53,818 bases of DNA from Elusimicrobiaceae bacterium (GCA_017528825.1 JAFXOI010000039.1:1-53818); one strand, 5' to 3'; positions 14,687 to 31,171 are shown, numbered from the stretch's first letter. The notes: generated from the sequence alone by a model not told the origin. Program-made: numbers and translations.

Positions 14687-14816
14687 AGAGCCTCCTTTCA
14701 GATTAGATTTAATTGCAGATTTTTGTAACAAAAACACCCGCGCCGGGCGGCGCAGATAGTTGGCACGACGATGTTTTTTGTGGATTTACGGCCAGGATAC
14801 AACTACTATATTTAAT

Positions 14817-14846: not shown

Positions 14847-14961
14847 GTTTTTTTCAAATACAAAGAAAGGTAAGGAGAAAAATAGCCCACAGATTTATCC
14901 TTTTGATTTTTGAGTCATTTTAATTATTATACTCCTTTGAATAAATTGATGATGAAATCTT

Positions 14962-15003
14962 CCAAATTCCTTATGCAGAGTAACAGGGAATATGCAGGGA
15001 ATA
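14962..15003. repeat. AATTCC...AACAGGGAA repeat, copy 3
   Basis: CCAAATTCCTTATGCAGAG, then TAACAGGGAATATGCAGGGAAT. Same order and spacing as 12271-12313. It marks the junction between the amidase/DUF4424 pair and the SIR2 operon. Confidence 0.6.
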
Positions 15004-15081
15004 TATTATAATGATAGTAGATATATAGAAAAGATAAATTATTTTCGAACAATAAATAATTGGAGTATTATAATTACATTT

Positions 15082-16113
15082 ATGGCAGTAGAGAATAAAT
15101 TTGACTTGATTCCTGCAATTCCTAGTGAGTTATTATCTCAATTTCTAAATGATAATGTAATAGTTTTCGTGGGAAATGGCATTTCTCGATTAGCGGGAGT
15201 TCCATCTTGGCGTGAACTTGCTTTAAGGTACTTGGAAAATTGGTTCGAAAAAGGGAATCTGTCTTATGATGCATACAATAAATTAAAGGATGAGTCAGAT
15301 CCTTTAACGCTTCTCACTATTTGTGCTGGGAAACTGGGAAAAGATGAGTTGAAGAATGAGCTTTATGCGAGATTAACTCAGTTTATTAAACAAGATTCTG
15401 AAGAAGAGAAAAAGATATTGCGTATTTATAGATACATAAGGGATTTTCATGCAGGATATATTACCACAAACTATGATGATTATTTAGAGATGAGTACTCC
15501 TACAAGTGAAATCGAAGATTTGCAAGGAATAGAGTTTTTGCAACCATATAAAATAAATTTACAGAAAACATTAAATCGTTTGGGACTGAATGATAAAATG
15601 GAAAAAGCCCGAGATAGTATAGTATATTTGCATGGCAAAGCGTCTAAACTTGGGGTTGTTGAGAAAGATGCCGTGCGCAATGACATTATTTTGACACTCG
15701 AAGATTATTTAGAACATTACAAGGATGATGATGGGTTAGGAAAAACTTTTTTAAGTAATGTGTTTGCCAATCATGTTTTTCTATTTATAGGTTTTGGCCT
15801 CAAGGAATTTGAGATTATTCAGCATATTAGGCGCCCTGATAATAGTCACAGCCATTATATACTATTGGGGGTATCAGATTATGAATATGACATATCCGAT
15901 CAATATAGGAATTATTACAGTATCCTAAATATTACTCCAGTTTTCTACAGCACATCTCAAAAAGGCTATGCGCAATTAGAAGACGTTTTGAGAGAATGGT
16001 CTTTAAATATTAGGACTGCTAGAATGGAAAGATTGAAAAACTTACAAAATGCTGAACAAAAGGCAAAAAATTTGGAAAATATCCGGAGATTGGGTAATGG
16101 AACCTTTAGATAA
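15082..16113 (+). CDS. SIR2-domain NADase-like defence protein
   Basis: 343 aa from ATG 15082 (an upstream in-frame start only adds low-complexity sequence; no clear Shine-Dalgarno for either). It is a SIR2 fold with the NAD-binding motif VGNGIS (30-35, SIR2_2-type GxGxS), TTNYD (128-132 with N130 and D132), the catalytic His in VYLHG (H184) and GFGL (237-240). SIR2 domains in prokaryotic immunity usually hydrolyse NAD+ rather than deacetylate. The protein has no sensor domain of its own, and a short C-terminal helix (about 315-343) may bind its partner. The gene overlaps the next by 17 nt, and the operon is strikingly AT-rich compared with neighbours, a sign of transfer. Confidence 0.88.
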   Translation: MAVENKFDLIPAIPSELLSQFLNDNVIVFVGNGISRLAGVPSWRELALRYLENWFEKGNLSYDAYNKLKDESDPLTLLTICAGKLGKDELKNELYARLTQFIKQDSEEEKKILRIYRYIRDFHAGYITTNYDDYLEMSTPTSEIEDLQGIEFLQPYKINLQKTLNRLGLNDKMEKARDSIVYLHGKASKLGVVEKDAVRNDIILTLEDYLEHYKDDDGLGKTFLSNVFANHVFLFIGFGLKEFEIIQHIRRPDNSHSHYILLGVSDYEYDISDQYRNYYSILNITPVFYSTSQKGYAQLEDVLREWSLNIRTARMERLKNLQNAEQKAKNLENIRRLGNGTFR

Positions 16114-19100
16114 GGAAGAAAATGAGATTTTAAAGTTGATATGTGCAGAATCGACTGCTTTAGAGGATTTTCTAATTGAATCCTCAAATCCTCGCTTTTT
16201 GCCTTTTCTAAATGGAAGAAATGATAAAAATTTGAATATTTTTCAAAATGGATTTGATCCTCAAGCTACCCAGTGGAAAGATCATTCTGTTTTTTGGTTA
16301 CCGGCTATATATTTGGAGAGAATTTCTAATAGATTACGTCAAGAATCTGATGTGTCAGATTCAGTACGCCAAGAATATGTATGTAATATCCAACAAGCTC
16401 TTGAGGACATAATTAAAGGTTATGATAAAGAAAATAAAAAGGACCTCGATGTTGTACAACTACTGCTACATATAATTCAAACTCAACATATATCTTCTTT
16501 AGATAATCGGCTTATTGATTTTATTATTATAAATCTAAAAAATGAAAAATCTTCGGCAGTAGTGCGTAATGCTCTCCCTATCATTAGAGAAATGTTATTT
16601 AATGGTAAGGATATTGAGCTTATAGAAAAATATATAGAACTTATGTTGGAATTATTGCCAAATGAACACGGAGCATCAGATAATCGAAGTTATTTTATAG
16701 AGGAGTTTCTATTAGATCAGGAAATTATAGAAAAATTGGCAGATATTTGTTCTGAAGCTTTTTTAATCAAATTAGCTAATAATTTAACACAAACATTGGA
16801 TCAGCGTCCTGAAGTGGTTTTGAAAGATGGACTAAAAATTCAAATCCAAGAGGATAGCTCCTTACGAGTAACTCTTACAGATACAAGTATTGACTTTACA
16901 TTACAATATTTTGAATTCAAAGACAAATATGCAAAAATTAAACCTATTATAGAAAAGGAGTTAGAAAATTATAATGGAACTAAAGATAGATTCCTTGTGA
17001 ATAAAATTTTGTATTGGTATACGTATATATGGAGTGATTTAACTTACATATCTTACCCATCTTTGTACGCTAAGCCTAAAGGATATTATAAAGCTCGTCA
17101 AGCGGTTTTAATTTATTTGTTAAAAGAAATTTTATTAATCAAATTAACAAAACAAGGAGTAGATAAATTTTTGAATACATACCAAATTATTACTTCTCAA
17201 AATAAGTATTTTATTTTTAAACGAATTTTCTTATACTGTTATGCCAAAGAATTTGAACAGACACGAAATGAATTATTAGCTTTGCTTGAACACGAGAAGT
17301 ATCTGTTATTCTCTTTGTATTTTGAAGCAGAGATGTATAGCTTATTGGAAAATAATGTTGAGAAGTTTACGCCTATAGAAAAGAAGAAAATAGAAGAAAT
17401 AATCGAAAATGGTCCCTATTCAGAAAGAATATGGGATGAAAATAGGGCGGATGGAACCACTCTAAGCAGAGCAAAAAAATTTTGGCAACAAGAATGGTAT
17501 GCCCCATTAAACAACGTGGAACCTTTTAAACATAAATATGAAGAATTGAGGCAACAAACTCATATGAAAGAGTTTTTTAATTTTCGAGATGGGACAGAAA
17601 TCCGGCCACTTCATTACAATTCTTTGTTAGGGGACATGGAAATTCTCTCACTACTAGAAAATGCTCCAAAAGAGTATGTTACTAAAATTGTTGAATTTAC
17701 TAAACGCGAGCCAAATCGAGTAATTGCTTCTATGCATGAGATGGCCCATACTGAAGGGAATGTAGAGCAGATGCGACGTCTGGCAGAAAATTATCCAGCA
17801 ATTATAACTGAGTCAATAACCGAATTAACGGAACTGGCACCCATTTATGTGCGGAATATTTTGTATGGTTTACGTGCGACGAAGGATAGAAAAAATATTA
17901 AATGGAAAAAAGTGAATTTCTTTGTAGAAAGCTATGTGGATCGTTTATTTCAAATTAAACAAGTTGTGCCAGTAAATGAAAGTACAGAAGATATTATAAA
18001 TGATGAACCTGAGGGGAAAGTTGCGGAATCTATTGTGGGCGCATGGGCTGATGCGATATCTATTCAAGAGGATAGAGACTATTTTGATATATCAGAAATT
18101 AAAAGATTGTTATTAAAATATTTAGAATTACTCTTAGAAAATTACTCTTTTGATAGTGAAGCTATGTATTACTTACAAGGAGGGAAAAAATATCCCTTAG
18201 ATTATTTGACTTTAGCTATAAATACAGAAGTTGGAAAAGTATTAGAAAAATTAATTAGGCTGCTACTTTCTGAGGATGTTCATAATTTAGTAACATTACA
18301 AAATGTTTATGATATGATGATAGAACGAAGAGTAGTAGAAGCACATGTTTTTCTAGGTTTCTATTTTATTTATTTTTATCAAAATTTAAAGGAATGGACC
18401 AAAAACACAATTGATTCTATATTGAACTTATCCAGAAACGAAGAAACATATAAATACTGGGAAATGTTTTTTGAGGGATTTATTAAAAGCAATAATCAAT
18501 ATTTGGATTATTATGAATGGATGTTTGCACATTATGCCAGAGCTATAGAAACATACAATGGCAAGGGAAATGAGAGACTTATAAACCTTTTTGTTCAATT
18601 TTTCATATCTGGTAAAGATGAATTAAACGATAAATCTTTAATTTGTTTGTGTTGGGAAAAATCGGCATTTCAGCTCTTATCTGGATGTATAAGAGATATT
18701 TCTTTTTCTTTAAATAGAGCCAAATCGTATGGTTATACTCCGACAGAAGAAGATATCGAACAAGAAAAAAGGGTTCTTCCAAAAGCTAAAAAATTATGGG
18801 ACTTCTTATGGAGAAAAATAGATGATATGCATAATATCTCGTTGGCGGAAAGTCCTACAGAACAGAAGAAGCTATTTGCAGATATGTTAGAACTGATACC
18901 ATCTTTGTCTTCCTTGAACAATCAAACGGAAGGAAGGATTTCTCAGCTTATAGATTGTGAAGATCCGGCGTTTTGGGGAACATCTTCCCTATTTAGTAAT
19001 TTAATGTATTTAGTAGAAAAAAATGATAATCAGAAAAACGAAATCCTAAATCTAGCAAAACTATATCATAAAATCATTCAAAGAATGGATTATTTTACAA

Positions 19101-19234
19101 TTTCCGAACAACATCAAGAGATTATAAATTTATTGAAACGGTATATTAGCGATTCCGAAATAAAGTTTCAAATAGATTTAATCAAAAATGTTTATGTAGA
19201 TAAAAAATGGAATCAATATTTGACTTGGTTTTAA
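16097..19234 (+). CDS. 1045-aa helical partner of SIR2 protein, family unknown
   Basis: 1045 aa from ATG 16097 (GGAG 8 nt upstream). The sequence is rich in Leu, Glu, Lys, Ile and Tyr and looks all-helical with repeated helix pairs across most of its length, as in HEAT- or TPR-like solenoids. No Walker A, nuclease, helicase or membrane motif was seen. Its start lies inside the SIR2 gene, so the two are translationally coupled and probably form a complex. By analogy with DSR- and Avs-type SIR2 systems the large protein may sense phage structures and switch on NAD+ loss. Its C-terminal third might belong to a DUF that accompanies SIR2 proteins (DUF4020 comes to mind), but this was not verifiable. 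Confidence 0.8.
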   Translation: MEPLDKEENEILKLICAESTALEDFLIESSNPRFLPFLNGRNDKNLNIFQNGFDPQATQWKDHSVFWLPAIYLERISNRLRQESDVSDSVRQEYVCNIQQALEDIIKGYDKENKKDLDVVQLLLHIIQTQHISSLDNRLIDFIIINLKNEKSSAVVRNALPIIREMLFNGKDIELIEKYIELMLELLPNEHGASDNRSYFIEEFLLDQEIIEKLADICSEAFLIKLANNLTQTLDQRPEVVLKDGLKIQIQEDSSLRVTLTDTSIDFTLQYFEFKDKYAKIKPIIEKELENYNGTKDRFLVNKILYWYTYIWSDLTYISYPSLYAKPKGYYKARQAVLIYLLKEILLIKLTKQGVDKFLNTYQIITSQNKYFIFKRIFLYCYAKEFEQTRNELLALLEHEKYLLFSLYFEAEMYSLLENNVEKFTPIEKKKIEEIIENGPYSERIWDENRADGTTLSRAKKFWQQEWYAPLNNVEPFKHKYEELRQQTHMKEFFNFRDGTEIRPLHYNSLLGDMEILSLLENAPKEYVTKIVEFTKREPNRVIASMHEMAHTEGNVEQMRRLAENYPAIITESITELTELAPIYVRNILYGLRATKDRKNIKWKKVNFFVESYVDRLFQIKQVVPVNESTEDIINDEPEGKVAESIVGAWADAISIQEDRDYFDISEIKRLLLKYLELLLENYSFDSEAMYYLQGGKKYPLDYLTLAINTEVGKVLEKLIRLLLSEDVHNLVTLQNVYDMMIERRVVEAHVFLGFYFIYFYQNLKEWTKNTIDSILNLSRNEETYKYWEMFFEGFIKSNNQYLDYYEWMFAHYARAIETYNGKGNERLINLFVQFFISGKDELNDKSLICLCWEKSAFQLLSGCIRDISFSLNRAKSYGYTPTEEDIEQEKRVLPKAKKLWDFLWRKIDDMHNISLAESPTEQKKLFADMLELIPSLSSLNNQTEGRISQLIDCEDPAFWGTSSLFSNLMYLVEKNDNQKNEILNLAKLYHKIIQRMDYFTISEQHQEIINLLKRYISDSEIKFQIDLIKNVYVDKKWNQYLTWF

Positions 19235-19249
19235 AGTAAGGTTATAGTT

Positions 19250-20176
19250 ATGCGCTCAAAAAATATTAAAAAATTAAATCGGTTATTGTACTTGCTCAAT
19301 CGATTGGATGGAACGGGTGTGCGCGTGCAAAAAGAGGCACGAGAATTGGAAGTCACGGAACGTACTATCCAGCGAGATTTGCGGGATATTGAGCTTGGGG
19401 GATTTCCTATCTATAAAGCAGCGCCGGGAGTGTATAAGTTTATTGAGGGGTTTTCGCTTAAGAAAATAGATTTAACCGATAAAGAAGCCTCTTTGCTACT
19501 TATGATGCAAGAATTAATTGCGCCGTTCGGAAAGCGGTTTCAGGAGCCGTTTGAGCGGTTGCGTCAAAAAGTGTTACGCGTACCGGACGAATCTCCATTT
19601 TATATCAAAATGCCGAAGGGACGCCAATACCAAGAGACAAAAATCACGCGCGTGCTGGAAAAAGGGATTTTGGAGCACACGGAAGTGCGTATGTCGCTGG
19701 CGGCCGATATCACGCGTAAACTAACTTACGAGTTAAAACCGCTTAAAATTATGAATTATGACGGTTTTTGGTATCTTTTGGGTATCAATGCCTATAAGCA
19801 GGTGCGAAAATTCCGGCTTGATCGTATTTTGGATGCTATCAATACCGATAAACCGTTTAAAGTAGCCAAGAATATCCAAAAAATGCTGGCTGAAAGCCAC
19901 AACATTTGGTTCGGTGAGAAACGGGATAAAACTGTGTCGTTCATCGTGCCGGCCCAATTTGCGGCGTATTTTAAGCAGAAAGATTATTTCCCTATGCAGA
20001 AAATCCGCAAAACGCAAAAAAACGGAGATATCGTAGTTGAAACACGTGTGAGCAACTACCGTGAAATTATCCCTACGGTGCTAAGTTGGCTTGAACATAT
20101 TACGCTAATTAGTCCGGCTGATTTTAAACAACTCATCCGGCAAATTCTGCGTCAAGCCGATAAACGGATGAAATAA
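19250..20176 (+). CDS. WYL-domain HTH transcription regulator
   Basis: 308 aa. N-terminal winged helix-turn-helix (VRVQKEARELEVTERTIQRD), then a WYL domain (ELKPLKIMNYDGFWYLLG... FRLDRI) and a C-terminal WCX-like extension. WYL regulators bind DNA through the HTH and small ligands or nucleic acid through the WYL fold, and many control phage-defence or CRISPR loci. The gene starts 15 nt after the helical partner and ends at a strong terminator, so it is the last gene of the SIR2 operon and its likely regulator. Its codon use is less AT-rich than the two genes before it. Confidence 0.9.
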   Translation: MRSKNIKKLNRLLYLLNRLDGTGVRVQKEARELEVTERTIQRDLRDIELGGFPIYKAAPGVYKFIEGFSLKKIDLTDKEASLLLMMQELIAPFGKRFQEPFERLRQKVLRVPDESPFYIKMPKGRQYQETKITRVLEKGILEHTEVRMSLAADITRKLTYELKPLKIMNYDGFWYLLGINAYKQVRKFRLDRILDAINTDKPFKVAKNIQKMLAESHNIWFGEKRDKTVSFIVPAQFAAYFKQKDYFPMQKIRKTQKNGDIVVETRVSNYREIIPTVLSWLEHITLISPADFKQLIRQILRQADKRMK

Positions 20177-20201
20177 AAAGCGGAGTAAAACTCCGCTTTT
20201 T
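20175..20201. terminator. Terminator between WYL gene and convergent nuclease gene
   Basis: A 12-bp perfect inverted repeat (AAAAAGCGGAGT / ACTCCGCTTTTT) with loop AAA. It works in both orientations and overlaps the WYL stop codon. Confidence 0.9.
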
Positions 20202-20203
20202 GA

Positions 20204-20713
20204 CTATTTTTTAAGTAACTCCCATTTGTCCTTGTACTGATCCAACCAATTCGAAGGGATATCCGGAGATTCATTATAAGTTGGTTTAATTCTTCGCATT
20301 GTTGTATCTTGGTGCGCTTGCCCTTTTTGTCCCGGTGTTTTGAGCCAATCTTGATGAGTCTTTTTTAGAATTTCTGCTACTTTTTTGGCAGGCATGATGT
20401 ATGTTTTTGGCTGACATTCATCGGTCCATTTTTCAGGCAAAGTTACAAAAACATAGAATAAATCTTTATCGCAGATTTCCTCATGTTTTTGACTCATCAT
20501 CCAGCCATTATCAGCAGATTTTCCCTCAGTGCGAGTTTTTACTTGAATACGAATAGGAGAATCACAATTCGGATAAATTGCTAGAATATCTATGTCCTTG
20601 GTGTTTTCGGGAGCAAGTCCAGCCGGAATGGCTAGTTCTTTGGCGATGCGTGCTAACACATAGTGTTCTCCCGCAGAACGAATAAAAGCCTTGTCTTTTT
20701 CTTGTTTAGTCAT
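20204..20713 (-). CDS. PD-(D/E)XK nuclease-like protein
   Basis: 169 aa from ATG 20713 (AAGGAG 8 nt upstream; a start three codons earlier is too close to that site). The N-terminal half carries the elements of a PD-(D/E)XK fold in order: helix with Glu (SAGEHYVLARIAKEL, E16), KDIDILAIY (D42), then strand IRIQVKTR (Q57, K59). The rest is a basic C-terminal region with no known motif. It could act as a restriction-type or defence nuclease. It is downstream of a coiled-coil gene on the same strand, 15 nt apart, and converges on the SIR2-WYL operon. Confidence 0.65.
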   Translation of the reverse strand: MTKQEKDKAFIRSAGEHYVLARIAKELAIPAGLAPENTKDIDILAIYPNCDSPIRIQVKTRTEGKSADNGWMMSQKHEEICDKDLFYVFVTLPEKWTDECQPKTYIMPAKKVAEILKKTHQDWLKTPGQKGQAHQDTTMRRIKPTYNESPDIPSNWLDQYKDKWELLKK

Positions 20714-20728
20714 AATATACACTCCTTT

Positions 20729-21157
20729 TTATTTATTTTTGTTCCTTTGCCATTCTTGGATCTCTAATTGATAGTCGGCAATTTGTCGTTGGAGCCGTTT
20801 TTCGTTATACTCATCGGCCCGTTGCAGAGATTCAATTTCCCGGTTGTATTTACGGGAGAGTTCCTCAATCGTGCGCTTGTAGTGACGGGATAATTCATCT
20901 ATTTCACGTTGCCAACGTTGTTCTAGCTGACGTTTCTGTTGCTTGAAATTATCATTTTCCTGCTTTTCTTCTTGTCCTTGTTGGCGCAAAATCTGACTCT
21001 TGTGTTCGTAACGGCGCAACTGCAGGTTTTTTAATTCTTCAGCCGCGCGGGTAATCTTATTTTTCAGGTCGCTGGGAAGTTGATAAGGCAAATTCCCAGT
21101 GGCGTTGCGATACTGTCGTTCAATTTCCGATTTTTCTGAGTTTGAGAAGAAAAACAT
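20729..21157 (-). CDS. Coiled-coil protein of unknown function
   Basis: 142 aa from ATG 21157, preceded by AAGGAGG with 4-nt spacing. After a short N-terminal stretch with MFFFSNSEKSEIERQY, about 100 residues are rich in Gln, Arg, Glu and Lys with heptad-like repeats (for example WQREIDELSRHYKRTIEEL), predicting a long coiled coil. No enzyme motif. It is first in a two-gene unit with the nuclease-like gene and has a long leader that includes a structured RNA (21259-21404) and a 16-bp palindrome (21226-21241). Confidence 0.7.
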   Translation of the reverse strand: MFFFSNSEKSEIERQYRNATGNLPYQLPSDLKNKITRAAEELKNLQLRRYEHKSQILRQQGQEEKQENDNFKQQKRQLEQRWQREIDELSRHYKRTIEELSRKYNREIESLQRADEYNEKRLQRQIADYQLEIQEWQRNKNK

Positions 21158-21225
21158 ACTTCCTCCTTGTGTGCATCTAACCTTACTTTGGCCGTAAACA
21201 TCAAGTAAATTGTAAAAAACCATTC

Positions 21226-21241
21226 CGACAAACGTTTGTCG
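21226..21241. promoter_or_regulatory. 16-bp perfect palindrome, operator-like
   Basis: CGACAAACGTTTGTCG is a perfect palindrome lying between the structured RNA and the coiled-coil gene, 69 nt before its start. It has no loop, so it is more like a repressor operator than a terminator. The binding protein is unknown. Confidence 0.5.
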
Positions 21242-21258
21242 CTTTTTAATATTACAAT

Positions 21259-21404
21259 AAAAAAGGCGGCAATCTTTTTAGGTAGCTGAGAACCGACCCA
21301 AAACGATACGCCGCCTGCCCACCCCATAAAGGGTGTGCAAAAGACGACTTCGTTTTCGTTTCTCAGCTCGCCGGATACCGGCGGGGTTATGCCAGACACA
21401 TAAC
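21259..21404 (-). ncRNA. Structured leader RNA, copy A
   Basis: In RNA order on the minus strand: hairpin 1 (GTTATG/CATAAC, 21399-21404 with 21386-21391), hairpin 2 (CGCCGG/CCGGCG, 21369-21383), a 9-bp P1 (21360-21368 with 21284-21292), an internal hairpin CACCC/GGGTG (21331-21335 with 21320-21324), then GGCAGGCGGCG and TTGGGTC. GCCGCC (21265-21270) lies 13 nt past P1, can pair with the internal GGCGGC (21310-21315) and runs into six U. The order and spacings match 42032-42183 with different stem sequences. The gene-free stretch 21158-21527 holds this RNA, the palindrome and AT-rich TATAAT-like boxes near 21428 and 21448. Confidence 0.65.
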
Positions 21405-21527
21405 GCCAAAAACAAGTCCAAAATCAAATTATATTACGACTGTTTATATTATAACTTTTTACAACAAATGAGGGGGAGTGTTGCCAGCCGGGTCTAATTT
21501 TTATATAGAAAAGATATAGGTAATTTT

Positions 21528-22385
21528 ATGAGTAATCTTAAAAAACCGTTGAAAATAGGCTTTTTGGTAACCTGCTTTGTGTACCCGAAAAAGCCCGAGC
21601 ATGATTTAGACTCCGTGCGTTTGGAACGTTCGATTGTATATTCCTGGGAAGATTTCCCCAAAAGAGAGAAGAAATTGATACCGTTAGAAATGGGAATACT
21701 TTTTCAAGCGTTAGGGTATTGTGAAGTATTAGTGGATTCTGTTGTGAAATTTCGGAAGACATTCGGTTTACCTGCGGAGGGAATTCCGTTTAAAAAATAT
21801 GAGAAACTAATTTGCCGGGCAGAGCCAGGGCCCATATACAAGTTTGATACTATCCCGGAAATGCGCAACGGTAAATATGAGCAAGCAAAAAAATTCTTAA
21901 AGAAGTTTGTTAAGGACAATATTATTGCCAATCCTCTTTCGATTTATTTGGAAACCATTTTCTTCGCAGGATTTGTAGATATTGTGTATTATCGTTATGA
22001 CGACCTTGCTATTCAAATTCCGTTCATTCATACCTATACTACCGGTACGATAGAGCCATATCGGCCTCCTGTTGCTATTTTTATCAATTCTTTAGCTGTT
22101 ACAAAAAAGAGTGTCCATCAATTAATTGATGAACACTGGGGCGAAATTAACTTCTATTTTAAGAAACATCCGTATATATCTGACGTCCAAATTGCCAAAG
22201 AGAAATTGCAAAATTTGGCAATGAAAATGAAAGGGAAAACATCTTCTCAAATTTTAGATTACTTGAATGATGAAAATATTAAACAAGGGAAAGCGGCGGT
22301 TGATAAAGAAGAGGATGCTATGCGGCAGGAACTCAATCGAACAAAAAAGCAACTTAAACAGTTGATTTGTCGTCGTAAAAAATGA
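21528..22385 (+). CDS. Hypothetical protein of accessory island
   Basis: 285 aa, soluble, with no recognised family. The first 130 residues include conserved-looking KIGFLVTCFVYPKK and LIPLEMGILFQALGYCEVLVDSV. A central hydrophobic patch (SIYLETIFFAGFVDIVYY) is too short and polar-flanked for a sure membrane helix. The last 60 residues form a basic helical tail, probably coiled coil (EDAMRQELNRTKKQLKQL). It stands alone between the coiled-coil leader and the methyltransferase cassette, with different composition from both. It could be a cargo gene of the island. Confidence 0.65.
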   Translation: MSNLKKPLKIGFLVTCFVYPKKPEHDLDSVRLERSIVYSWEDFPKREKKLIPLEMGILFQALGYCEVLVDSVVKFRKTFGLPAEGIPFKKYEKLICRAEPGPIYKFDTIPEMRNGKYEQAKKFLKKFVKDNIIANPLSIYLETIFFAGFVDIVYYRYDDLAIQIPFIHTYTTGTIEPYRPPVAIFINSLAVTKKSVHQLIDEHWGEINFYFKKHPYISDVQIAKEKLQNLAMKMKGKTSSQILDYLNDENIKQGKAAVDKEEDAMRQELNRTKKQLKQLICRRKK

Positions 22386-22446
22386 ATGTGACAAAAAAAT
22401 CTCATTTTGTGTCACGGTAAAACTTAACTTGATCTTACTATACTTT

Positions 22447-22481
22447 ACTCTGTGCCTATCACTATATTACAGGCACGGAGT
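22447..22481 (+). promoter_or_regulatory. Hairpin covering methyltransferase Shine-Dalgarno
   Basis: ACTCTGTGCCT pairs with AGGCACGGAGT (11 bp including one G-U) around a 13-nt loop. The GGAG that serves the ATG at 22487 is in the 3' arm, so the fold would hide the ribosome site. The dyad could instead be a protein operator. Confidence 0.5.
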
Positions 22482-22486
22482 TTTGT

Positions 22487-23758
22487 ATGGAAACCATAAA
22501 AATCAACAAACTAAAACCACATCCCCAAAATGCGCGCACACACAGCAAAAAACAGATTCGCCAAATTGCCCAAAGTATTGAGATATTTGGTTTTACAAAT
22601 CCCGTTCTTATAGACGGGAAAAATAATATACTGGCCGGGCATGGGCGCGTAGAGGCAGCAAAATTAGCCAAACTTGCCGAAGTTCCTTGCGTACGGATTA
22701 CACACCTGACGCCCGCCCAAAAGAGAGCCTATATTTTGGCTGATAACCGTCTTGCGGAACTGTCCGGCTGGGACGAAGACTTGCTTCAGGTGGAGCTGGA
22801 AGAAATCAATCATTTGGATTGTGATTTTGATTTGACCCTGACAGGGTTTGAAACGCCGGAGATAGATAATCTTCTGCAGCCGGATACCGCACCCGCTTCG
22901 GAGAAGACCGATTTCCTGTCAGCTGATATTCCGCTCCGCGTTCAACCCGGTGATTTGTGGCAACTGGGCCCTCATAAACTGTTTTGCGGGGATGCTACTA
23001 AAGCACAATCATACGCACAGTTGCTTGGAAAGGAAAAGGCTAACCTGATTGTAACGGACGCACCGTACAACGTCAAAATTTCGGGTCACGTTCGCAGTAG
23101 CAAAAAATACCGTGAGTTCGCTATGGCCTCAGGCGAAATGAGCCAAAGCGAATTTACAGAGTTCCTATATGGGGTGTTTATGCTGTTGGTCCAATACAGT
23201 GTGCCCGGAAGTTTGCACTATGCGTTTATGGATTGGCGGCATATAGGAGAGATGTTACAAGCCGGGCGGGTATATAGCGAACTAAAAAATATCTGCGTGT
23301 GGAATAAATTAAGTGGCGGAATGGGTAGTTTATACCGCAGCCAGCATGAACTTGTTTTCGTGTTCAAAAATGGAACAAGTCCACATACCAATAACATTGA
23401 ACTGGGGGTACACGGGCGCTATCGCACGAATGTGTGGGACTATCCCGGCATCTATCTAAACGGTAAAGCCAACCGCGCCAATATCCACTTACATCCCACG
23501 GTAAAGCCCGTTGGGTTGCTGGCAGATATTTTATTGGATGCGAGCCGCCGCAAGGAGATTGTGCTGGACCCGTTCGGCGGGAGCGGCAGTACATTACTGG
23601 CCGCAGAGCGTACGGGGCGTCGTGCCCGATTAATGGAAATTGACCCGCATTATTGCGATGTGATTTTATACCGGTATGAACAACTGGGAAATAAGGAAAT
23701 AAAACTTTTACAGAGAGGAGAAACAGATGAAAATACGCAGAAAACAAATTCAAAATAA
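22487..23758 (+). CDS. ParB-fused DNA (adenine/cytosine-N4) methyltransferase
   Basis: 423 aa. Residues 1-130 are a ParB/Srx-type domain (LKPHPQNARTHSKKQI, ILAGHGRVEAAK). Residues 150-420 are a beta-class methyltransferase with catalytic motif IV before the SAM motif: DAPY (191-194) and, near residue 360, LDPFGGSGST. Motif IV usually reads DPPY or NPPY; the Ala here is unusual. This protein type is common in phage-like cassettes beside DUF5681 and terminase genes. It may protect element DNA or mark packaging sites. The next gene starts inside its 3' end. Confidence 0.9.
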   Translation: METIKINKLKPHPQNARTHSKKQIRQIAQSIEIFGFTNPVLIDGKNNILAGHGRVEAAKLAKLAEVPCVRITHLTPAQKRAYILADNRLAELSGWDEDLLQVELEEINHLDCDFDLTLTGFETPEIDNLLQPDTAPASEKTDFLSADIPLRVQPGDLWQLGPHKLFCGDATKAQSYAQLLGKEKANLIVTDAPYNVKISGHVRSSKKYREFAMASGEMSQSEFTEFLYGVFMLLVQYSVPGSLHYAFMDWRHIGEMLQAGRVYSELKNICVWNKLSGGMGSLYRSQHELVFVFKNGTSPHTNNIELGVHGRYRTNVWDYPGIYLNGKANRANIHLHPTVKPVGLLADILLDASRRKEIVLDPFGGSGSTLLAAERTGRRARLMEIDPHYCDVILYRYEQLGNKEIKLLQRGETDENTQKTNSK

Positions 23759-24125
23759 GCCATTTAACTATGCTGTAGGATATTGCAGACCACCCCTACA
23801 TTCGCGTTTCAAACCGGGACAGTCAGGTAATCCCAAGGGGCGTTCTAAAGGGCATAAAACCTTGAATGTGTTATTACGGCAAAGTCTTAACCAAGGAATA
23901 GAAGTCACGATGGGGGGAGAAAAGCATATAATACCCAAATTCACGGCTATGGTAATGGCTCTTATCAATAAGTCCTTACAGGGGGATATGCGGGCCATTA
24001 CAGTTCTTTTCCCTTATATTTTAAGAATGGAACAGGCGGAAGCTGAGGTAATGCGAAAAGTAGAAGCATTATCGGCCAATGACCAGGAGATTTTAAAAGA
24101 ATATGCCAAACGAATTGTCAAATAA
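23727..24125 (+). CDS. DUF5681 protein, terminase-associated
   Basis: 132 aa. The N-terminal motif RFKPGQSGNPKGRSKGHK is the DUF5681 signature (Phe-x-Pro-Gly-x-Ser-Gly-Asn-Pro-x-Gly-Arg). The remainder is helical, ending in a basic tail. Genes of this family often sit directly before phage terminases and may be a small-subunit-like DNA-binding partner; that role is inference. It overlaps the methyltransferase by 32 nt and the terminase gene by 23 nt. Confidence 0.85.
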   Translation: MKIRRKQIQNKPFNYAVGYCRPPLHSRFKPGQSGNPKGRSKGHKTLNVLLRQSLNQGIEVTMGGEKHIIPKFTAMVMALINKSLQGDMRAITVLFPYILRMEQAEAEVMRKVEALSANDQEILKEYAKRIVK

Positions 24126-25587
24126 GAATGAACGGCAACTTTTAAGAGCCGTATTAAGAAGTGATTTTAAGTCATTTTGCATTAAAGTATTTAATGAAGT
24201 GTCGGGTAGTTCTGTATATCAGGACAACTGGCATGTGGATGTAATATGCCAGTCCATTGAAAATATACGTTGTGGAAACGAAACACGTCTGATTATCAAT
24301 GTACCGCCGCGCTACATGAAATCCATCATTTGTTCGGTGGCGTTGCCGGCTTTTTTACTTGGGCATAATCCCAAAGAGCGGATTTTGTGCGTTAGTTATA
24401 GTGATGAACTTGCCGCCAAAATGGCTTCCGACCAACGTAAGATAATGGAAAGGGAATGGTATCAGGAGCTTTTTCCGTTTACGCGTTTGTTGCGCCGCGG
24501 AGTGATGGATTTAGAGACGACTGCCGGAGGCGGGCGGTTTTCTACATCCGTAGGCGGTACGATTACGGGGCGCGGGGGAAATTGGATAATTATTGATGAC
24601 CCGATTAAACCTGCGGATGCTTATTCTGATGTCGTACGCAATAAAGTTAATGATTGGTATGGTAATACATTACTTTCCCGTTTAGATGATAAGAAAAATG
24701 GGAAGATACTGGCTATTATGCAGCGTACACACATAAACGATTTGACGGGGCATTTGTTGGAAACAGATTCTTCATTTCGCTTAATCAAAATGCCTGCTAT
24801 TGCCATAAAAGATGAAACGTGGTCTATTGGCACTCCGTATGGAGAGCAGCATATTATTGAACGGCCGATTGGAGAAGCGTTACACCATACCCGGGAGAGC
24901 GTAGAAGATTTACAGCGTATTAAATCTACCGCAGGAAGTTATACGTTTGCAAGTCAATATCAGCAGACGCCGGAGTTGCTTGGTGGAAATATCATCCGGC
25001 GGGAGTGGTTACATACTTACAAGGTGGATGAATTGCACAAACAAGTACGAACGGGAAAATTAAAATTGTCCTTGTGCCAAAGTTGGGATACGGCCAGTAA
25101 AGCAGAAGAAGACAATGATTATTCTGTTTGTATCACATATGCCCATGATTATCGTAAGACCATATGGATTATAGATGTTTTCCGGGCAAAATTGGAATTT
25201 CCGGATTTGGTAGAAACGGCCACATATATGGCCCGGGAGTGCCAGCAGAAATACCGTTCTTTAAATCCTTATATTCCGGATATTTTAATCGAGGATATGA
25301 ATAGTGGCATAGGTTTGGCGCAGACACTTGCGAACTCTTTTGGAAGCAACGTCAAGCCTATTAAACCTACGCAAGATAAAGCTACGCGGTTGAAAACAGT
25401 ATCTTATTTATTAGAAACGGGGAAATGTCTGTTCCCGGATAATAATCCCACGTGGTGGCCGGATTTTGAGCGGGAGCTACTACAATTTCCAAACGGTCGG
25501 CACGATGACCAATGTGATGCCCTTTCCCAACTGCTTACTTATGAGCAACAAGAACGCAAAGATCTTTCGTGGCTTGAATATGTGTAA
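24103..25587 (+). CDS. Phage-type terminase large subunit
   Basis: 494 aa with both TerL domains. The ATPase half has a Walker A-like NVPPRYMKS (K73, S74), a conserved SYSDELAAKM segment and Walker B IIIDDP (D165, D166). The nuclease half has an RNase H-like fold with SWDTASKAEEDNDYS, LIEDMNSGIG and HDDQCDALSQ acidic positions. It should cut and translocate DNA into a procapsid. No portal, capsid or protease gene follows, so the packaging motor has no visible shell in this element. Confidence 0.92.
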   Translation: MPNELSNKNERQLLRAVLRSDFKSFCIKVFNEVSGSSVYQDNWHVDVICQSIENIRCGNETRLIINVPPRYMKSIICSVALPAFLLGHNPKERILCVSYSDELAAKMASDQRKIMEREWYQELFPFTRLLRRGVMDLETTAGGGRFSTSVGGTITGRGGNWIIIDDPIKPADAYSDVVRNKVNDWYGNTLLSRLDDKKNGKILAIMQRTHINDLTGHLLETDSSFRLIKMPAIAIKDETWSIGTPYGEQHIIERPIGEALHHTRESVEDLQRIKSTAGSYTFASQYQQTPELLGGNIIRREWLHTYKVDELHKQVRTGKLKLSLCQSWDTASKAEEDNDYSVCITYAHDYRKTIWIIDVFRAKLEFPDLVETATYMARECQQKYRSLNPYIPDILIEDMNSGIGLAQTLANSFGSNVKPIKPTQDKATRLKTVSYLLETGKCLFPDNNPTWWPDFERELLQFPNGRHDDQCDALSQLLTYEQQERKDLSWLEYV

Positions 25588-25685
25588 GGTGCTATAAAAG
25601 GACCGACAAAGGGTTGTCGGTTTCCTTTTGTATCATAAACTGGACTTATTTGCCGCAAGTAAGGCGTAATGAGTTGGGAGGATTT

Positions 25686-26474
25686 ATGGAAACTTATAAC
25701 AATCAGCAACTATTGCAAGAATTTCTACAACGTATGTCTTGGAAACAGGAAACTGGACACTCCGGGTATGAAACTTCGTTACAGGGGTTAAATAGACAAA
25801 CAGGCGGTTTGCAACCGGGATGTTGCTATTTGTTTGTGGGACCGGATGCGGTACTTAATCGGGCTTTTTTTGCTACATTGGTCCATGATTTGTGTTGGAC
25901 GCAGCAATTAACTACTCGTTGGATTTGTTGTAGGCAACTGGCTGGAGATATTATGGCTTTGTTGTTAAGCCGCGCAATAGGGAAATCCCCGGTTCTTTTA
26001 TCTGCTAAAAACAATCAAAATGAGGTACAAGAGACGGCTGGAGAATTTCAAAATCGTCCGTTAGATATTTGGGAAACGAATACGGACACATTCTTAGATG
26101 ATGAAATTCATCATCTTTGGGATACGGCAGGTAAACAAGTATTTATTGTTGAGGACTTAAATTTGGTCCAATCACGATTACAAAATAAGATTAGTTTTTT
26201 AACGGAATATGCGCGAGTTTTTAAGAGTGTGGTAATTGTCAGTTCGGTCATATCTATCAAACATTATACACCTCAAAACGTGATTGGTAAACTCCGTTGG
26301 TTGGGAGAAGTAGATCCTTACTTTGATTGCATTAGTTCGTTGACGGCTAGAGATAAGTTAGGTCCTACAGTTGTTACACTACAAAACGTGAAAAACCGTC
26401 TTTTGCCTTGTAGCACTGCTGAATTTACCTATACGATGGGGGAAATGAATTTTAAGGATAAGGGGACGCTATGA
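25686..26474 (+). CDS. RecA/DnaB-fold protein lacking P-loop, paralogue 1
   Basis: 262 aa from ATG 25686 (GGAGG 5-9 nt upstream). The N-terminal half resembles DnaB/KaiC-type ATPase cores: SLQGLNRQTGGLQPGCCYLF followed by VGPDAVLNRA where GxxxxGK[ST] is expected (residues 51-60). The P-loop Lys and Thr/Ser are absent. It aligns along its length with the next gene (TGGL..G....F.G and LHDLCW/LHSLCW-type segments), so the two are tandem paralogues. The fold is probably kept without ATP hydrolysis. The genes overlap by 4 nt. Confidence 0.65.
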   Translation: METYNNQQLLQEFLQRMSWKQETGHSGYETSLQGLNRQTGGLQPGCCYLFVGPDAVLNRAFFATLVHDLCWTQQLTTRWICCRQLAGDIMALLLSRAIGKSPVLLSAKNNQNEVQETAGEFQNRPLDIWETNTDTFLDDEIHHLWDTAGKQVFIVEDLNLVQSRLQNKISFLTEYARVFKSVVIVSSVISIKHYTPQNVIGKLRWLGEVDPYFDCISSLTARDKLGPTVVTLQNVKNRLLPCSTAEFTYTMGEMNFKDKGTL

Positions 26475-27346
26475 TTACGTACGAAACCAGACATTTAGTA
26501 GATAAATTCTTATCGGATATGGAATATCAGACGAAGAATCCTTCCGCAGAGCAGGCCAAATTAGCTTCAACGGGTTTTTGTACGGGATTAAAAGGCTTTG
26601 ATTGGCAAATTGGCGGTCTGCGGCGCGGAGATGTATTTTTGCTAATCGGAAGCCAAGAACAGATTAACACGACATTTTTAGCGTTTATTTTACACTCGTT
26701 GTGTTGGAAACAACAAATTCCTGTACAAGTTTATTCATGTGCAAATCCGGTGGACCGATGGTTACCTTATTTGTTATCAGCCGAGTTAAAGATGTCTTAT
26801 TCTACTTTGCGGTGGGGGGCGGTTACTGAAGAAAAAGCACGTGTCAAACAGGCAAGTCAATACGTGAAAAATTTGCCACTTTGGCTTAGTGACTTGGAGT
26901 TAAACTTAGCACGATGGAGCGATTTTGAATTATCCAAAGGCCAAATCCTATTGATAGATGGATTTCTATTTGAAAGAGGAGGAAAGGGTGAGGAGTTTTT
27001 GCGCAATTTAAAACATATTGCCTTGCAAAAGCAAAAAATTATCTTAATTAGCACGAAACTTGACGAAGAGATGTGTCACTATCCGGATGTTTATACCAAT
27101 TTACGCTTATTTGGTTTATTGAGCAGCATGTGTGATTTTGTGGGGCTATTAAGTTTATGTGTTCCAGGGTCGAATACGATTGTGGATGCGACGAGTGATA
27201 CAGGGGAAATGAAAATTATTGAGCAAGATTTTTCACCTATGGAATTGGTATCGTTGCGTATGTTATACAATTCACGTTTGCCACGCTCTTATGCCAATTT
27301 CCTATATAAATTTGATGCGGTAGATTTCAGAGATACAATCAATTAA
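26471..27346 (+). CDS. RecA/DnaB-fold protein lacking P-loop, paralogue 2
   Basis: 291 aa; ATG overlaps the preceding stop (ATGA). It begins like DnaB-type cores (TGFCTGLKGFDWQIGGLRRGDVFLLIG), but the loop is SQEQINTT (61-68) in place of GKT. A later strand QILLIDGFLF fits the Walker B position with one acidic residue. It is less diverged from active DnaB-family enzymes than paralogue 1. With the previous gene it may form a hetero-oligomer that handles element DNA. That is inference. Confidence 0.65.
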   Translation: MITYETRHLVDKFLSDMEYQTKNPSAEQAKLASTGFCTGLKGFDWQIGGLRRGDVFLLIGSQEQINTTFLAFILHSLCWKQQIPVQVYSCANPVDRWLPYLLSAELKMSYSTLRWGAVTEEKARVKQASQYVKNLPLWLSDLELNLARWSDFELSKGQILLIDGFLFERGGKGEEFLRNLKHIALQKQKIILISTKLDEEMCHYPDVYTNLRLFGLLSSMCDFVGLLSLCVPGSNTIVDATSDTGEMKIIEQDFSPMELVSLRMLYNSRLPRSYANFLYKFDAVDFRDTIN

Positions 27347-27382
27347 ATAATTTTGATAAATTGACTTGACTTATCGCCCGAT

Positions 27383-27421
27383 AGTAAGCGTGAATGTAGT
27401 ACGAAGTAAAAATCGCTTACT
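27383..27421. promoter_or_regulatory. Inverted repeat upstream of DUF2924 gene
   Basis: AGTAAGCG (27383-27390) and CGCTTACT (27414-27421) form a perfect 8-bp inverted repeat 23 nt apart, just before the AAGGAG of the next gene. A TTGACTTGACT tract lies upstream. It may be an operator, a leader hairpin or a recombinase-related site. Confidence 0.45.
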
Positions 27422-27435
27422 TAAGGAGATAAGTT

Positions 27436-27744
27436 ATGAAGAAAAATACCAAAAAATCAGTAGCAAAAAATACGCCTGCAAAACCTGCTGTTTTGCGGGT
27501 GGTTAGTCCCATTGTGCAAACAGAAACCACGGTTGAAAACATACCTGTCCGGGCACGAGATAACCGTCTACCAGCGCCGGGAAGCATCATCACTAAAACC
27601 TACCGCGGTAAAACCATAGAAGTAAAAGTATTAGAGAATGGCTTTGAATACGAAGGTAATGTATTCAAAAGTATTTCGCGCGTGGCGATGACGATTGTAA
27701 AACGTCACATCAGCGGTTATGTATTCTTTGGGCTTACTAAATGA
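27436..27744 (+). CDS. Short DUF2924-like protein
   Basis: 102 aa. A basic, Lys/Ala/Pro-rich N-terminus precedes the DUF2924 C-terminal module: PGSIITKTYRGKTIEVKVLENGFEYEGNVFKS, then ISRVAMTIVKRHISGYVFFGL. The module (Gly-x-x-x-x-Lys-x-Tyr-x-Gly..., FFGL end) recurs in the gene at 27941. DUF2924 proteins accompany serine recombinases in many genomes; function unknown, DNA binding likely. AAGGAG precedes the ATG. Confidence 0.8.
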   Translation: MKKNTKKSVAKNTPAKPAVLRVVSPIVQTETTVENIPVRARDNRLPAPGSIITKTYRGKTIEVKVLENGFEYEGNVFKSISRVAMTIVKRHISGYVFFGLTK

Positions 27745-27944
27745 CACCGCGTCATCTGCCACCAGTATCGGGGCGATTTGTAAAGGGCCGTTCGGGCAAT
27801 CCCCTAGGGCGGCCTCCCCGAAATTTTCGTGAAAGAGATATCGTTTTGTTAGTTGCTAAATTCTTTGAAACTTTAGCCAAGGCCTATTGTAATCAAAGCC
27901 GTTCGGTGGAAAAAATCCGTCAGATTAAAGATATTTTATCATGA
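27741..27944 (+). CDS. Short DUF5681-like protein
   Basis: 67 aa. It contains GRFVKGRSGNPLGRPPRN, the DUF5681 motif seen also at 23727, followed by a short helix. It overlaps both neighbours by 4 nt. It is likely a truncated or minimal family member. Confidence 0.72.
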   Translation: MTPRHLPPVSGRFVKGRSGNPLGRPPRNFRERDIVLLVAKFFETLAKAYCNQSRSVEKIRQIKDILS

Positions 27945-28390
27945 GAAGAAAGTGCTATTTGCCCAAAAGTTATGAAGAACTAAAAGGACTATCCCCCAAA
28001 GAGCTGCGGTTTTATTGGAACGCTTTTTATGCCAGCCCTTTGAGAGGTGTTAAGGCCAAGTTGCGCCCTTTGTGGTATGCCATTCAATGTGAATTAGGGC
28101 GTTGTAAATTGCAAGGAAAATACATCACGCGGCTTGACCGGTATGCGAGCAATCCCGACAAGTATATTGAGCATGCGCATAAAAAGCGTTATGCACTCGC
28201 TGTTGGCACGATACTGACTAAAACCTATAAAGGTCGGATGTATCAAGTGACCGTAAAAGGGGAAAACGCTTATGAATGGGAAGGAAAAATATATCCCAAT
28301 TTAACAGCGCTGGCGGAGAAAATCGTGCGGGCCCACGTCAGCGGCCCTAAATTTTTCGGATTAACAGGGAAAAAATATGCCCAAAATTAA
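27941..28390 (+). CDS. DUF2924 protein
   Basis: 149 aa, full-length DUF2924: an N-terminal helical part (SYEELKGLSPKELRFYWNAF... LRPLWYAIQCELG), then the module AVGTILTKTYKGRMYQVTV and HVSGPKFFGL. It overlaps the recombinase gene by 14 nt, the standard pairing for this family, which suggests it helps or controls the recombinase. Confidence 0.85.
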   Translation: MRRKCYLPKSYEELKGLSPKELRFYWNAFYASPLRGVKAKLRPLWYAIQCELGRCKLQGKYITRLDRYASNPDKYIEHAHKKRYALAVGTILTKTYKGRMYQVTVKGENAYEWEGKIYPNLTALAEKIVRAHVSGPKFFGLTGKKYAQN

Positions 28391-30035
28391 TTGTGCTATA
28401 TATACCCGCAAATCGACGGAGCGTGGGCTCGAAATGGAGTTTAACTCGCTCCAAAACCAAGAAGAAGCGTGCAAGGCCTATATCCTCTCACAAGCTTTTA
28501 ACGGGTGGAAGTATTATAAGACCTTTGAAGACGGCGGGATTAGCGGCGGCACGATGGAGCGTCCCGGTTTGCAAGCGCTTTTGGAAGAAATCCGTGCCCG
28601 TAATATACAGGTGGTTGTCGTCTATAAAGTGGACCGCCTGTCGCGCTCTATCTTTGACTTCCATAAAATGATGCAGGAATTTGCCAAGCACGAATGTAAC
28701 TTCGTGTCTATCACGCAGTCGTTCGACACGAGCAACTCTATGGGCAAATTAACGCTTAATATGCTCCTGTCCTTTGCCCAGTTTGAGCGGGAAGTATCTG
28801 CCGAGCGCGTGCGCGATAAAATCGCGGCCAGCAAAGCCAAAGGACTATGGATGGGAGGCACTCCACCGATTGGGTATGATGCCAATGAGCGGCAGCTTAT
28901 CGTAAACGAGGGTGAGGCGCAATTAGTGCGGCTGATTTTTCAAAAATATATAGAAACTGAGAATATGTTTGCGGTGGCCGATTATCTTAACGCACAGGGT
29001 ATTTGTACGAAGAAATGGGTGGCACGGCGCAGCAAACGCGAACATGGCGGCGGGCAATTTTATAAAAGTAATGTGCAGCGCATTTTGACAAACCCGCTTT
29101 ATATCGGCAAAATCGCACACTATGCCAAAAACAAAGTGTATGAAGGCAAGCATCCGGGGATTGTACCACCGGATTTATGGGATCAAGTTCAAACGCTTAT
29201 ACGCCGAAGAATTAACGACCCGAACGCATTTCTGCACTATAAATGCCATAAAACAGTTTTGGCAGGCAAATTATATGACGACAAGGGGCAGAATTTTCGG
29301 TTCACTTCGTCAAAAAAGCAAGGCAAAAAGTTCCTGTATTACTACAACGGAGTGGGCGGGCATTATCTATCCGTAGAGCAGTTGGACAGATTTGTACTAA
29401 ATATGCTCAAAACGGCGGATTTTGACGAGATAGAGCCATTAGCGGATATGAGTGCCATTACTGATGCTCAATTGAGCGCATGGATTACCAAAGCTACCTG
29501 CCAAACGGTAGGTAAGAAACATTATTTAACAGTGTTTTTGGATGAAAAGCAGATAAAGACAGATTTGGGGAATTGTTCCAAAATGTCAGGTCAGGTGGAT
29601 GCCAAACCCCTCAAAATAGAGCGCATAGAAGATACAATTTACCTGCGGGATAGTTTTATGGTGGATAATATATCGTCTGTACGACTACGGAATGGGAATG
29701 CCCGTAACATCTTAACTATACGGCAACTCAATGAAAGTTTAGTGCGCGCCTTGGCACGAGGTTGGCAACTTAAAAAGAGGATAGAACAGGGGATTATTAT
29801 CCGGGAGTTAGAAAAAGAAATGCACATGACCAAACGCACGATTACACGGTACGTCAATTTATGTTATTTATCACCGCGTATAGTGGGGGATATCTTGGAA
29901 TACAAGAATCCTGCGAGTTTAACCTTGCGCGAGCTTATGAATCTAGCCGAGGGGCAGGTGGATTTTGAGAGGCAGGAAAAGGGATGGAATGGGGAGAAAG
30001 GTCATAGGTTCGAAAGTAAAAGATATATTACTTGA
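28377..30035 (+). CDS. Large serine recombinase
   Basis: 552 aa. The resolvase catalytic domain has IYTRKS with the nucleophile Ser13, VVVYKVDRLSRS and the long E-helix region FAQFEREVSAERVRDKI. A recombinase domain (GGTPPIGYD..., SNVQRILTNPLYIG) and a C-terminal region with HTH-like ITRYVNLCYLSP follow. A zinc ribbon like that of many phage integrases is not obvious. It should integrate or excise the cassette by strand exchange at short att sites, which could not be located by eye. In the 229 bases after it no gene is seen. Confidence 0.93.
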   Translation: MPKINCAIYTRKSTERGLEMEFNSLQNQEEACKAYILSQAFNGWKYYKTFEDGGISGGTMERPGLQALLEEIRARNIQVVVVYKVDRLSRSIFDFHKMMQEFAKHECNFVSITQSFDTSNSMGKLTLNMLLSFAQFEREVSAERVRDKIAASKAKGLWMGGTPPIGYDANERQLIVNEGEAQLVRLIFQKYIETENMFAVADYLNAQGICTKKWVARRSKREHGGGQFYKSNVQRILTNPLYIGKIAHYAKNKVYEGKHPGIVPPDLWDQVQTLIRRRINDPNAFLHYKCHKTVLAGKLYDDKGQNFRFTSSKKQGKKFLYYYNGVGGHYLSVEQLDRFVLNMLKTADFDEIEPLADMSAITDAQLSAWITKATCQTVGKKHYLTVFLDEKQIKTDLGNCSKMSGQVDAKPLKIERIEDTIYLRDSFMVDNISSVRLRNGNARNILTIRQLNESLVRALARGWQLKKRIEQGIIIRELEKEMHMTKRTITRYVNLCYLSPRIVGDILEYKNPASLTLRELMNLAEGQVDFERQEKGWNGEKGHRFESKRYIT

Positions 30036-30264
30036 AGATATTCGAATCTGTAATTCCTTGTAAGGCCCAAACTAAATGAAAAATCAAATGTGTGCCCTTT
30101 AACATAATTTGGTGCCACGTGGTTTTTAGAAACGGGCCATACTTAAAAAAGTATTGGGTAGGCTGGGATTTTATGTCGATATGTCTAATAGCATACATCC
30201 TAATGAGTAAAGTAGTATAATAAATGCTAGTAAATTCTCTTGTAAGACAAAAGGAACATTAACA

Positions 30265-30915
30265 ATGAAGAATAATAATCCTCGTTTAGCCCTTATTGCA
30301 GAAAAATTTTATCTTGCACATCCTGATTTTGTGAGAAAATCACTAATGAGTGTGAAGGTGTTTGCAGATATATTAAGTGTTCTGGGGATATTTGGAGGAA
30401 TTATTTTGTTATTTGTTGGACAGTGGCGTTTGGCTTTACAATTGTTAGTATTTTTACTAATAGGAAAATTCTGTCTTGGGCTTGTTTTGTGTATTAGACT
30501 TATCTTCTTCGCACCTGCGGTAGCGTTGTTTGACAAGGGGGGATTTTTTCGTGCATTATCTTTTATCTTTTGGTTATTGAGTGCTTTGTTTTTTGAATTT
30601 ATTATGTGGATGTTTAGTATGGGGATATTTCAAACTGCCGTGGCACACACAGAAAATAGCAATATGTTTGTGATTATCTGTGCGATGCTTGCTTCTTATT
30701 TGGTGAGTACGGGTATTGTTCACTCAATGGCTGAGAAGAATAATACAGCAGATGCTCTAAATTTCATATTTTATTCAACTGTTTGGGGCGTCTTGTACTT
30801 ACTTTTCGCGTGTGCTTTGTTGCCTGCCCGTGCGGTTATTGCCCTATGTTTTGTGGTTGGATTATTGAAAGCAGTAGCATTGACTATATTATTATTTGTT
30901 GATAATAGAAAGTAA
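30265..30915 (+). CDS. Polytopic membrane protein, unknown
   Basis: 216 aa with about six membrane helices: residues 30-50, 55-80, 95-120, 125-145, 165-185 and 190-212. AAAGGAA lies about 10 nt before the ATG. No family recognised. It lies between the recombinase and tRNA-Val, and ends at a terminator of the repeated 47-bp type. It could be island cargo or the first host gene on this side. Confidence 0.65.
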   Translation: MKNNNPRLALIAEKFYLAHPDFVRKSLMSVKVFADILSVLGIFGGIILLFVGQWRLALQLLVFLLIGKFCLGLVLCIRLIFFAPAVALFDKGGFFRALSFIFWLLSALFFEFIMWMFSMGIFQTAVAHTENSNMFVIICAMLASYLVSTGIVHSMAEKNNTADALNFIFYSTVWGVLYLLFACALLPARAVIALCFVVGLLKAVALTILLFVDNRK

Positions 30916-30945
30916 TCTTCCCGAATTGGATCCTGCAAAATTGGC

Positions 30946-30992
30946 AGTTAGAGAAAAAGGCCCGAATTGGGCCTTTTTTACGTGCATCTAAA
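30946..30992 (+). repeat. 47-bp terminator-bearing repeat, right copy
   Basis: Partner of 11944-11990 (41 of 47 identical). The hairpin AAAAAGGCCC/GGGCCTTTTT at 30954-30978 terminates the membrane-protein gene. A second hairpin and AAATGGTGG (31093-31101) follow, as on the left side, but here the latter is the 3' end of tRNA-Val. Confidence 0.6.
30954..30978 (+). terminator. Terminator after membrane-protein gene
   Basis: 10-bp stem AAAAAGGCCC/GGGCCTTTTT, loop GAATT. Confidence 0.88.
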
Positions 30993-31095: not shown

Positions 31096-31171
31096 TGGTG
31101 GACCGGACAGGACTTGAACCTGTGACCTTCCGCGTGTAAGGCGGACGCTCTACCAACTAAGCTACCGATCC
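31096..31171 (-). tRNA. tRNA-Val (UAC anticodon)
   Basis: 76 nt with encoded CCA. Acceptor stem GGATCGG/CCGGTCC (one G-U), D arm GCTTAGTTGGTAGAGC, anticodon stem-loop CCGCC-TTACACG-CGG with TAC at the anticodon, and T arm CAGGTTCAAGTCCTG. The 3' end points toward the accessory island, the usual arrangement for a tRNA used as integration site. Confidence 0.96.

Follow-up and report, generated by a model that had tools for sequence, protein, structure and literature searches.

We identified a SIR2 gene and an overlapping gene for a large helical protein that most likely form a two-gene (split) antiphage system of the DSR1 type, in which a predicted SIR2 NADase is paired with a separate solenoid that corresponds to the C-terminal portion of Dsr1. 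The pair was found in a 53,818-nucleotide stretch of DNA from an Elusimicrobiaceae bacterium, which was analyzed as a whole (the window); its host genome is placed by named relatives near Elusimicrobium, in a group of gut bacteria. A preliminary description of the locus had proposed a SIR2 NADase effector and a separate non-ATPase solenoid, probably a sensor, on a mobile island, and the analysis below supports this proposal. The features that we refer to throughout are as follows.

14849..30968, no strand: inserted element of about 16.1 kb that carries the pair (flanks joined in close relative G037)
15082..16113, + strand: predicted SIR2-family NADase effector, 343 aa (PDLC04166 and PF13289 matches, invariant residues, AF2 model)
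16085..16113, + strand: GGAG Shine-Dalgarno and 17-nt frame overlap (overlap of 1 to 83 nt in 24 of 25 homologous pairs)
16097..19234, + strand: large alpha-solenoid, probable phage sensor, 1045 aa, probable counterpart of the Dsr1 C-terminal part (AF2 model, relatives' PDLC04166 matches, HHalign)
19250..20176, + strand: WYL/WCX regulator with HTH, 308 aa, accessory (Pfam domains; GC content 0.426)
20174..20202, + strand: intrinsic-terminator-like hairpin at the operon end (13-pair stem, then T-rich tail)
22487..25587, + strand: ParB-like DNA methylase and terminase large subunit, phage-like (phrog_498, 4e-127; phrog_38, 8.7e-105)
28377..30035, + strand: large serine integrase/recombinase (phrog_95 integrase, 1.5e-98; phrog_125 DNA invertase, 1.5e-44)

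Gene organization and the mobile element

All three open reading frames of the preliminary description are present. For the SIR2 gene, 15082 is the most likely start; an in-frame ATG at 14992, 5' of this position, is less probable. As had been described, the end of the SIR2 gene overlaps the start of the solenoid gene, here by 17 nt, and a GGAG Shine-Dalgarno lies 8 nt before the solenoid ATG, an arrangement that points to two distinct proteins whose translation is coupled. The WYL gene starts 15 nt past the solenoid stop, also as described. The AT richness attributed to the first two genes was likewise evident, with GC contents of 0.337 for the SIR2 gene and 0.304 for the solenoid gene, compared with ~0.43 in the surroundings and 0.426 in the WYL gene. 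Promoter-like matches at the operon were no more frequent than in shuffled sequences.

The operon resides within the inserted element, because the sequences that flank this element are about 75 nt apart in G037, where a single locus (L175) aligns with the window on both sides of the element, to the left of about 14849 and to the right of about 30968. The interval that is missing in G037 contains the terminase, the ParB-like methylase, and the serine integrase, confirming the earlier placement of the operon on an island with phage-like genes. The element is a recent insertion. A search of its ends revealed no att core repeat. Two other genes within the element, both on the minus strand, lie beside the operon, namely, a small gene that is nuclease-like by eye (20204-20722; phrog_29029 match, 5e-14) and a coiled-coil gene (20729-21223). 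A tRNA-Val gene (31096-31171, minus strand) is found just beyond the right end of the element. At 13541-14737 (minus strand), a 398-aa gene without a family match adjoins a DUF4424 gene; its G037 counterpart is shorter (352 aa), and a perfect sigma-70 consensus match is located upstream of it at 14846-14817 (minus strand).

The WYL protein contains WYL (PF13280; E = 1.1e-9), WCX, and HTH_11 domains, which is the BrxR-type set of HTH, WYL, and WCX. Since no WYL homolog was found by sequence at the other loci that carry the pair, we rejected this gene as a core component; its GC content also differs from that of the pair. Thus, of the three-gene operon originally proposed, the order of the first two genes is kept elsewhere, while the WYL gene is not conserved with them. 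The regulator was most likely picked up locally and, by analogy with BrxR, a WYL repressor of a defense operon (PMC9122601), and CapW, likewise a WYL regulator (PMC9122588), probably represses the operon or adjusts its expression.

The SIR2 protein, the solenoid, and their homologs

The SIR2 protein matched Pfam SIR2_2 (PF13289; E = 1.1e-13) and the PADLOC Dsr1 model PDLC04166 at model positions 5-288 (E = 9e-47); its score against NCBIfam NF041818 was 37.1 bits, far below the 1400-bit cut-off. The NAD-site residues N130, D132, and H184, which had been reported as intact, are invariant among 19 SIR2 relatives and are the counterparts of the catalytic N/D/H in DSR2, ThsA, and KomC, with H184 aligning with KomC H146. 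In addition, the SIR2 profile matched DSR2 over the DSR2 catalytic region, where the pocket consists of N133, Y134, D135, and H171 (PMC11263360). A fold search with the AF2 model (pLDDT 83.4) placed the protein nearest to defense SIR2s: KomC (Z = 20.6; rmsd 3.1 over 249 residues), ThsA (Z = 20.3; rmsd 3.8 over 263 residues), DSR2 (Z = 20.1; rmsd 3.2 over 245 residues), and Avs5 (Z = 15.5). The C-terminal end is formed by a helix (295-339), with no additional domain according to Pfam and the model. Because the catalytic residues are intact and the model resembles defense SIR2s, NADase activity of this protein is likely.

AF2 predicted the 1045-aa protein to be a nearly all-helical solenoid that contains a single small beta element (pLDDT 77.8, pTM 0.49; seven sequences), in agreement with the solenoid-like fold proposed at the outset. 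On its own, this protein had no Pfam, PADLOC, or NCBIfam family match, including no ATPase Pfam match, and did not match the Dsr1 models directly; the link to DSR1 runs via its relatives. The earlier statement that it lacks any recognized motif holds for the protein alone; several of its relatives match PDLC04166. A Walker A motif was absent from 22 solenoids, relatives included, which fits the proposed non-ATPase partner. The fold search with the solenoid model gave generic HEAT/importin/CAND1 matches, with no DSR structure among the matches listed, and the solenoid profile matched no DSR2 among PDB sequences. A likeness to Avs4 (8dgf; Z = 10.5, 272 residues, rmsd 5.2) was discarded, as it is below the level that discriminates helical repeats. 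No variable sensing surface stood out among the solenoids of close pairs. Searches of viral contigs, genome contigs, phages, and plasmids with the 1045-aa protein alone returned nothing, and relatives surfaced only through whole-genome and profile searches; the lack of relatives is only apparent.

Counting co-occurring homologs, as the preliminary description had suggested, yielded about two dozen SIR2-solenoid pairs from Elusimicrobiota, Proteobacteria, deltaproteobacteria, and Zixibacteria; in almost all of them, the two frames overlap. Within the genus, whole-genome searches located the pair in five more genomes, at identities from 34% down to about 20%; one further genome with the pair belongs to the order and others to the phylum. 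It is also carried by a Vibrio coralliilyticus plasmid and occurs in Shewanella, Acidithiobacillus, Bradyrhizobium, and Dechloromonas, as well as in the deltaproteobacteria and Zixibacteria. All SIR2 relatives that exceed the background of general SIR2 similarity have an adjacent solenoid, which is fragmented in one Endomicrobium locus. In Endomicrobium (L074/L081), an intact SIR2 gene precedes the pieces of a solenoid gene that is apparently decaying. Distances between SIR2 proteins and between solenoids co-vary (Mantel r = 0.895; 0/2000 permutations), a correlation that is confounded by species descent. Because both genes are under purifying selection (omega 0.07-0.37) and their order is kept in about two dozen genomes, the pair is not a chance ORF arrangement. 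In a raw tally without a matched control (77 neighbors at 13 homologous pairs), the neighbors included type I, IIG, and III restriction-modification genes, DISARM-type DrmMI/DrmD, DpdE, GajB of Gabija, and an RT-helicase; the homologs are thus found in defense surroundings, consistent with the antiphage role first suggested.

Relationship to DSR1 and alternative explanations

The PADLOC Dsr1 model PDLC04166 describes a single chain of 1227 positions, and homologous pairs cover it from end to end. The Vibrio SIR2 protein and solenoid matched positions 5-301 (E = 1.6e-58) and 311-1213 (E = 5.6e-113), respectively; the corresponding regions were 8-286 and 308-1213 for a pair from Enterobacterales (G519) and 6-303 and 308-1223 for a pair from Shewanella (G341). 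The solenoid family is also homologous to a canonical Dsr1 (L143 in genome G528; 1780 bits against NF041818, cut-off 1400): its profile matched this protein colinearly (E = 8e-11), and HHalign gave 97.8% (E = 6.6e-13, 580 columns) versus ≤1.2% for reversed sequences, shuffled sequences, and other SIR2-linked C-termini. In the reverse direction, the canonical Dsr1 model matched the split solenoids in a single region, 603-766. Because of the end-to-end coverage of PDLC04166 and the homology of the solenoid family to canonical Dsr1, we regard the pair as a split relative of DSR1 and not as an unrelated new system; it very probably functions like DSR1. The preliminary description had called the system unclassified pending a clear match to a named one, and with the match to DSR1 found by the PADLOC search, that designation has to be dropped.

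By strict definition, the pair is not a member of DSR1, because it is encoded by two overlapping ORFs (in the window and at 24 other loci) where Dsr1 is one polypeptide, and because it falls short of the 1400-bit equivalog cut-off of NF041818, to which the solenoid has no match. The SIR2-like domain in the N-terminal position, with intact N/D/H, is present, and a helical region homologous to Dsr1 is evident through the family, the window solenoid alone being below detection. The genomes that we searched yielded no fused member of the PDLC04166 family, so we infer the fused form from the single-chain model. A SIR2 tree, with support of 39/48, gave no placement of the split forms with respect to the fused ones. 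A literature search, which had most subscription papers outside its reach, found no paper on a split DSR1.

We consider it unlikely that the pair represents an unclassified SIR2 system with no relation to DSR1, in which the solenoid arose on its own and resembles Dsr1 only because both consist of helical repeats. Such an origin would be consistent with the absence of family matches for the 1045-aa protein alone, with a model that matches generic HEAT folds only, and with an HHalign value of just 42% when the Elusimicrobial solenoid subfamily alone was compared with Dsr1. However, the wider family spans the Dsr1 model with colinear order and spacing, and the controls described above did not approach its value against canonical Dsr1.

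Some relatives of the solenoid occur in other contexts. In one genome (G106, L023:8210-11605), the solenoid has an N-terminal TIR domain (TIR_2, 2e-25) and overlaps a SIR2 gene by 4 nt, an operon that is predicted to bring two NAD-acting effector types together. Two Endomicrobium-type solenoids (L072:7324-10776 and L073:5352-8144; HHalign 99.9% and 99.6%) have a different N-terminal region of ~200 aa in place of SIR2, and no SIR2 gene lies beside either; the L073 solenoid is near an N6-methylase-like gene. In G238 (L069:888-11160), three overlapping large genes encode a PLD-SNF2 helicase, an Eco57I-type methylase, and, third, a Dsr1-C-like solenoid whose N-terminus differs. These loci suggest that the solenoid is a sensor subunit that is joined with several effectors. 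It is conceivable, and we propose it tentatively, that it acts as an exchangeable phage sensor for several kinds of killing module, combined with a separate SIR2 protein at most loci, with a fused TIR domain plus SIR2 in G106, with another N-terminus in Endomicrobium, and with a helicase and methylase in G238. If so, DSR1 would be merely the fused form within a wider family of sensor-plus-effector systems.

The existence of related solenoids without SIR2 also bears on whether the pair could be toxin-antitoxin-like, with the solenoid inhibiting a SIR2 toxin and the pair maintaining the element without sensing phage. Although its location on an integrative element and the toxicity of uncontrolled NADases would fit such a role, this is quite improbable, as the homologs lie beside other defense genes, the pair is related to DSR1, and the solenoid is far bigger than known antitoxins. 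Finally, a single Dsr1 gene that is broken by a frameshift or translated through one would fit the 17-nt overlap and the one-chain nature of known Dsr1 but is highly implausible, since 24 of 25 divergent loci share the two-ORF layout but differ in overlap, frame, and start codon, a Shine-Dalgarno precedes the start of the second ORF both in the window and in several relatives, and purifying selection acts on both ORFs.

Proposed mechanism and comparison with known systems

As a split DSR1-like system, the pair would be expressed from one mRNA, with coupled translation yielding the SIR2 protein and the solenoid. The solenoid would bind the SIR2 protein and probably keep it inactive until a phage protein binds the solenoid, upon which SIR2 would be released or assembled. 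The activated SIR2 protein would then hydrolyze NAD+, and infection would be aborted or stopped. In this scheme, the WYL protein may act as a repressor, like BrxR. The model for the solenoid as a probable phage sensor is DSR2, whose helical part binds the phage tail tube protein (PMC11263360). DSR1 has been reported to halt phage without cell death (PMC10952713).

A DSR1-type SIR2 effector and its helical probable sensor thus exist as separate proteins in several phyla. They can therefore be purified, mixed, and swapped individually, and the activation step, which is hard to study within a single polypeptide, becomes accessible to direct tests. Such pairs would probably be overlooked by tools designed for a single long Dsr1 protein; the Vibrio pair is annotated merely as "SIR2 family protein" and "hypothetical protein."

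Several known systems share properties with this operon. ThsA of Thoeris and Avs5 have the same SIR2 effector fold as the SIR2 protein described here. ThsA carries a C-terminal nucleotide-sensing domain and has a TIR partner, ThsB, whereas the SIR2 protein has no further domain and the operon has no TIR gene. In Avs5, SIR2 is fused to a STAND ATPase (PMC12931631), and SIR2-HerA (Nezha) likewise has a P-loop ATPase in the partner, a feature that the solenoids lack. SIR2-HerA (PMC11559045) and KomBC (Kongming) resemble the pair in that a separate SIR2 NADase has a separate partner; however, these partners are the HerA ATPase and KomB, not a helical solenoid. BrxR and CapW are WYL regulators in defense operons (PMC9122601, PMC9122588), like the WYL protein here, but its gene is the last in the operon and is absent from homologous pairs. 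DSR2 of B. subtilis, in which SIR2 is followed by helical repeats and the phage tail tube protein is the activator, shares the SIR2 fold and the N/Y/D/H pocket (PMC11263360); it is a single chain of about 1005 aa, and no sequence relation to the solenoid was detected in the profile search of PDB sequences. The closest system is DSR1 (NF041818; PADLOC PDLC02183/04167/04166), in which a SIR2 NADase is followed by an extended helical region; the order of the two parts and the length of the helical one match those of the pair. Whereas DSR1 is a single chain, the pair consists of two overlapping genes and is nearest to PADLOC's divergent PDLC04166 model. Such split pairs are widespread and represent a two-gene form of a known type of system, one that largely goes unnamed in current annotation.
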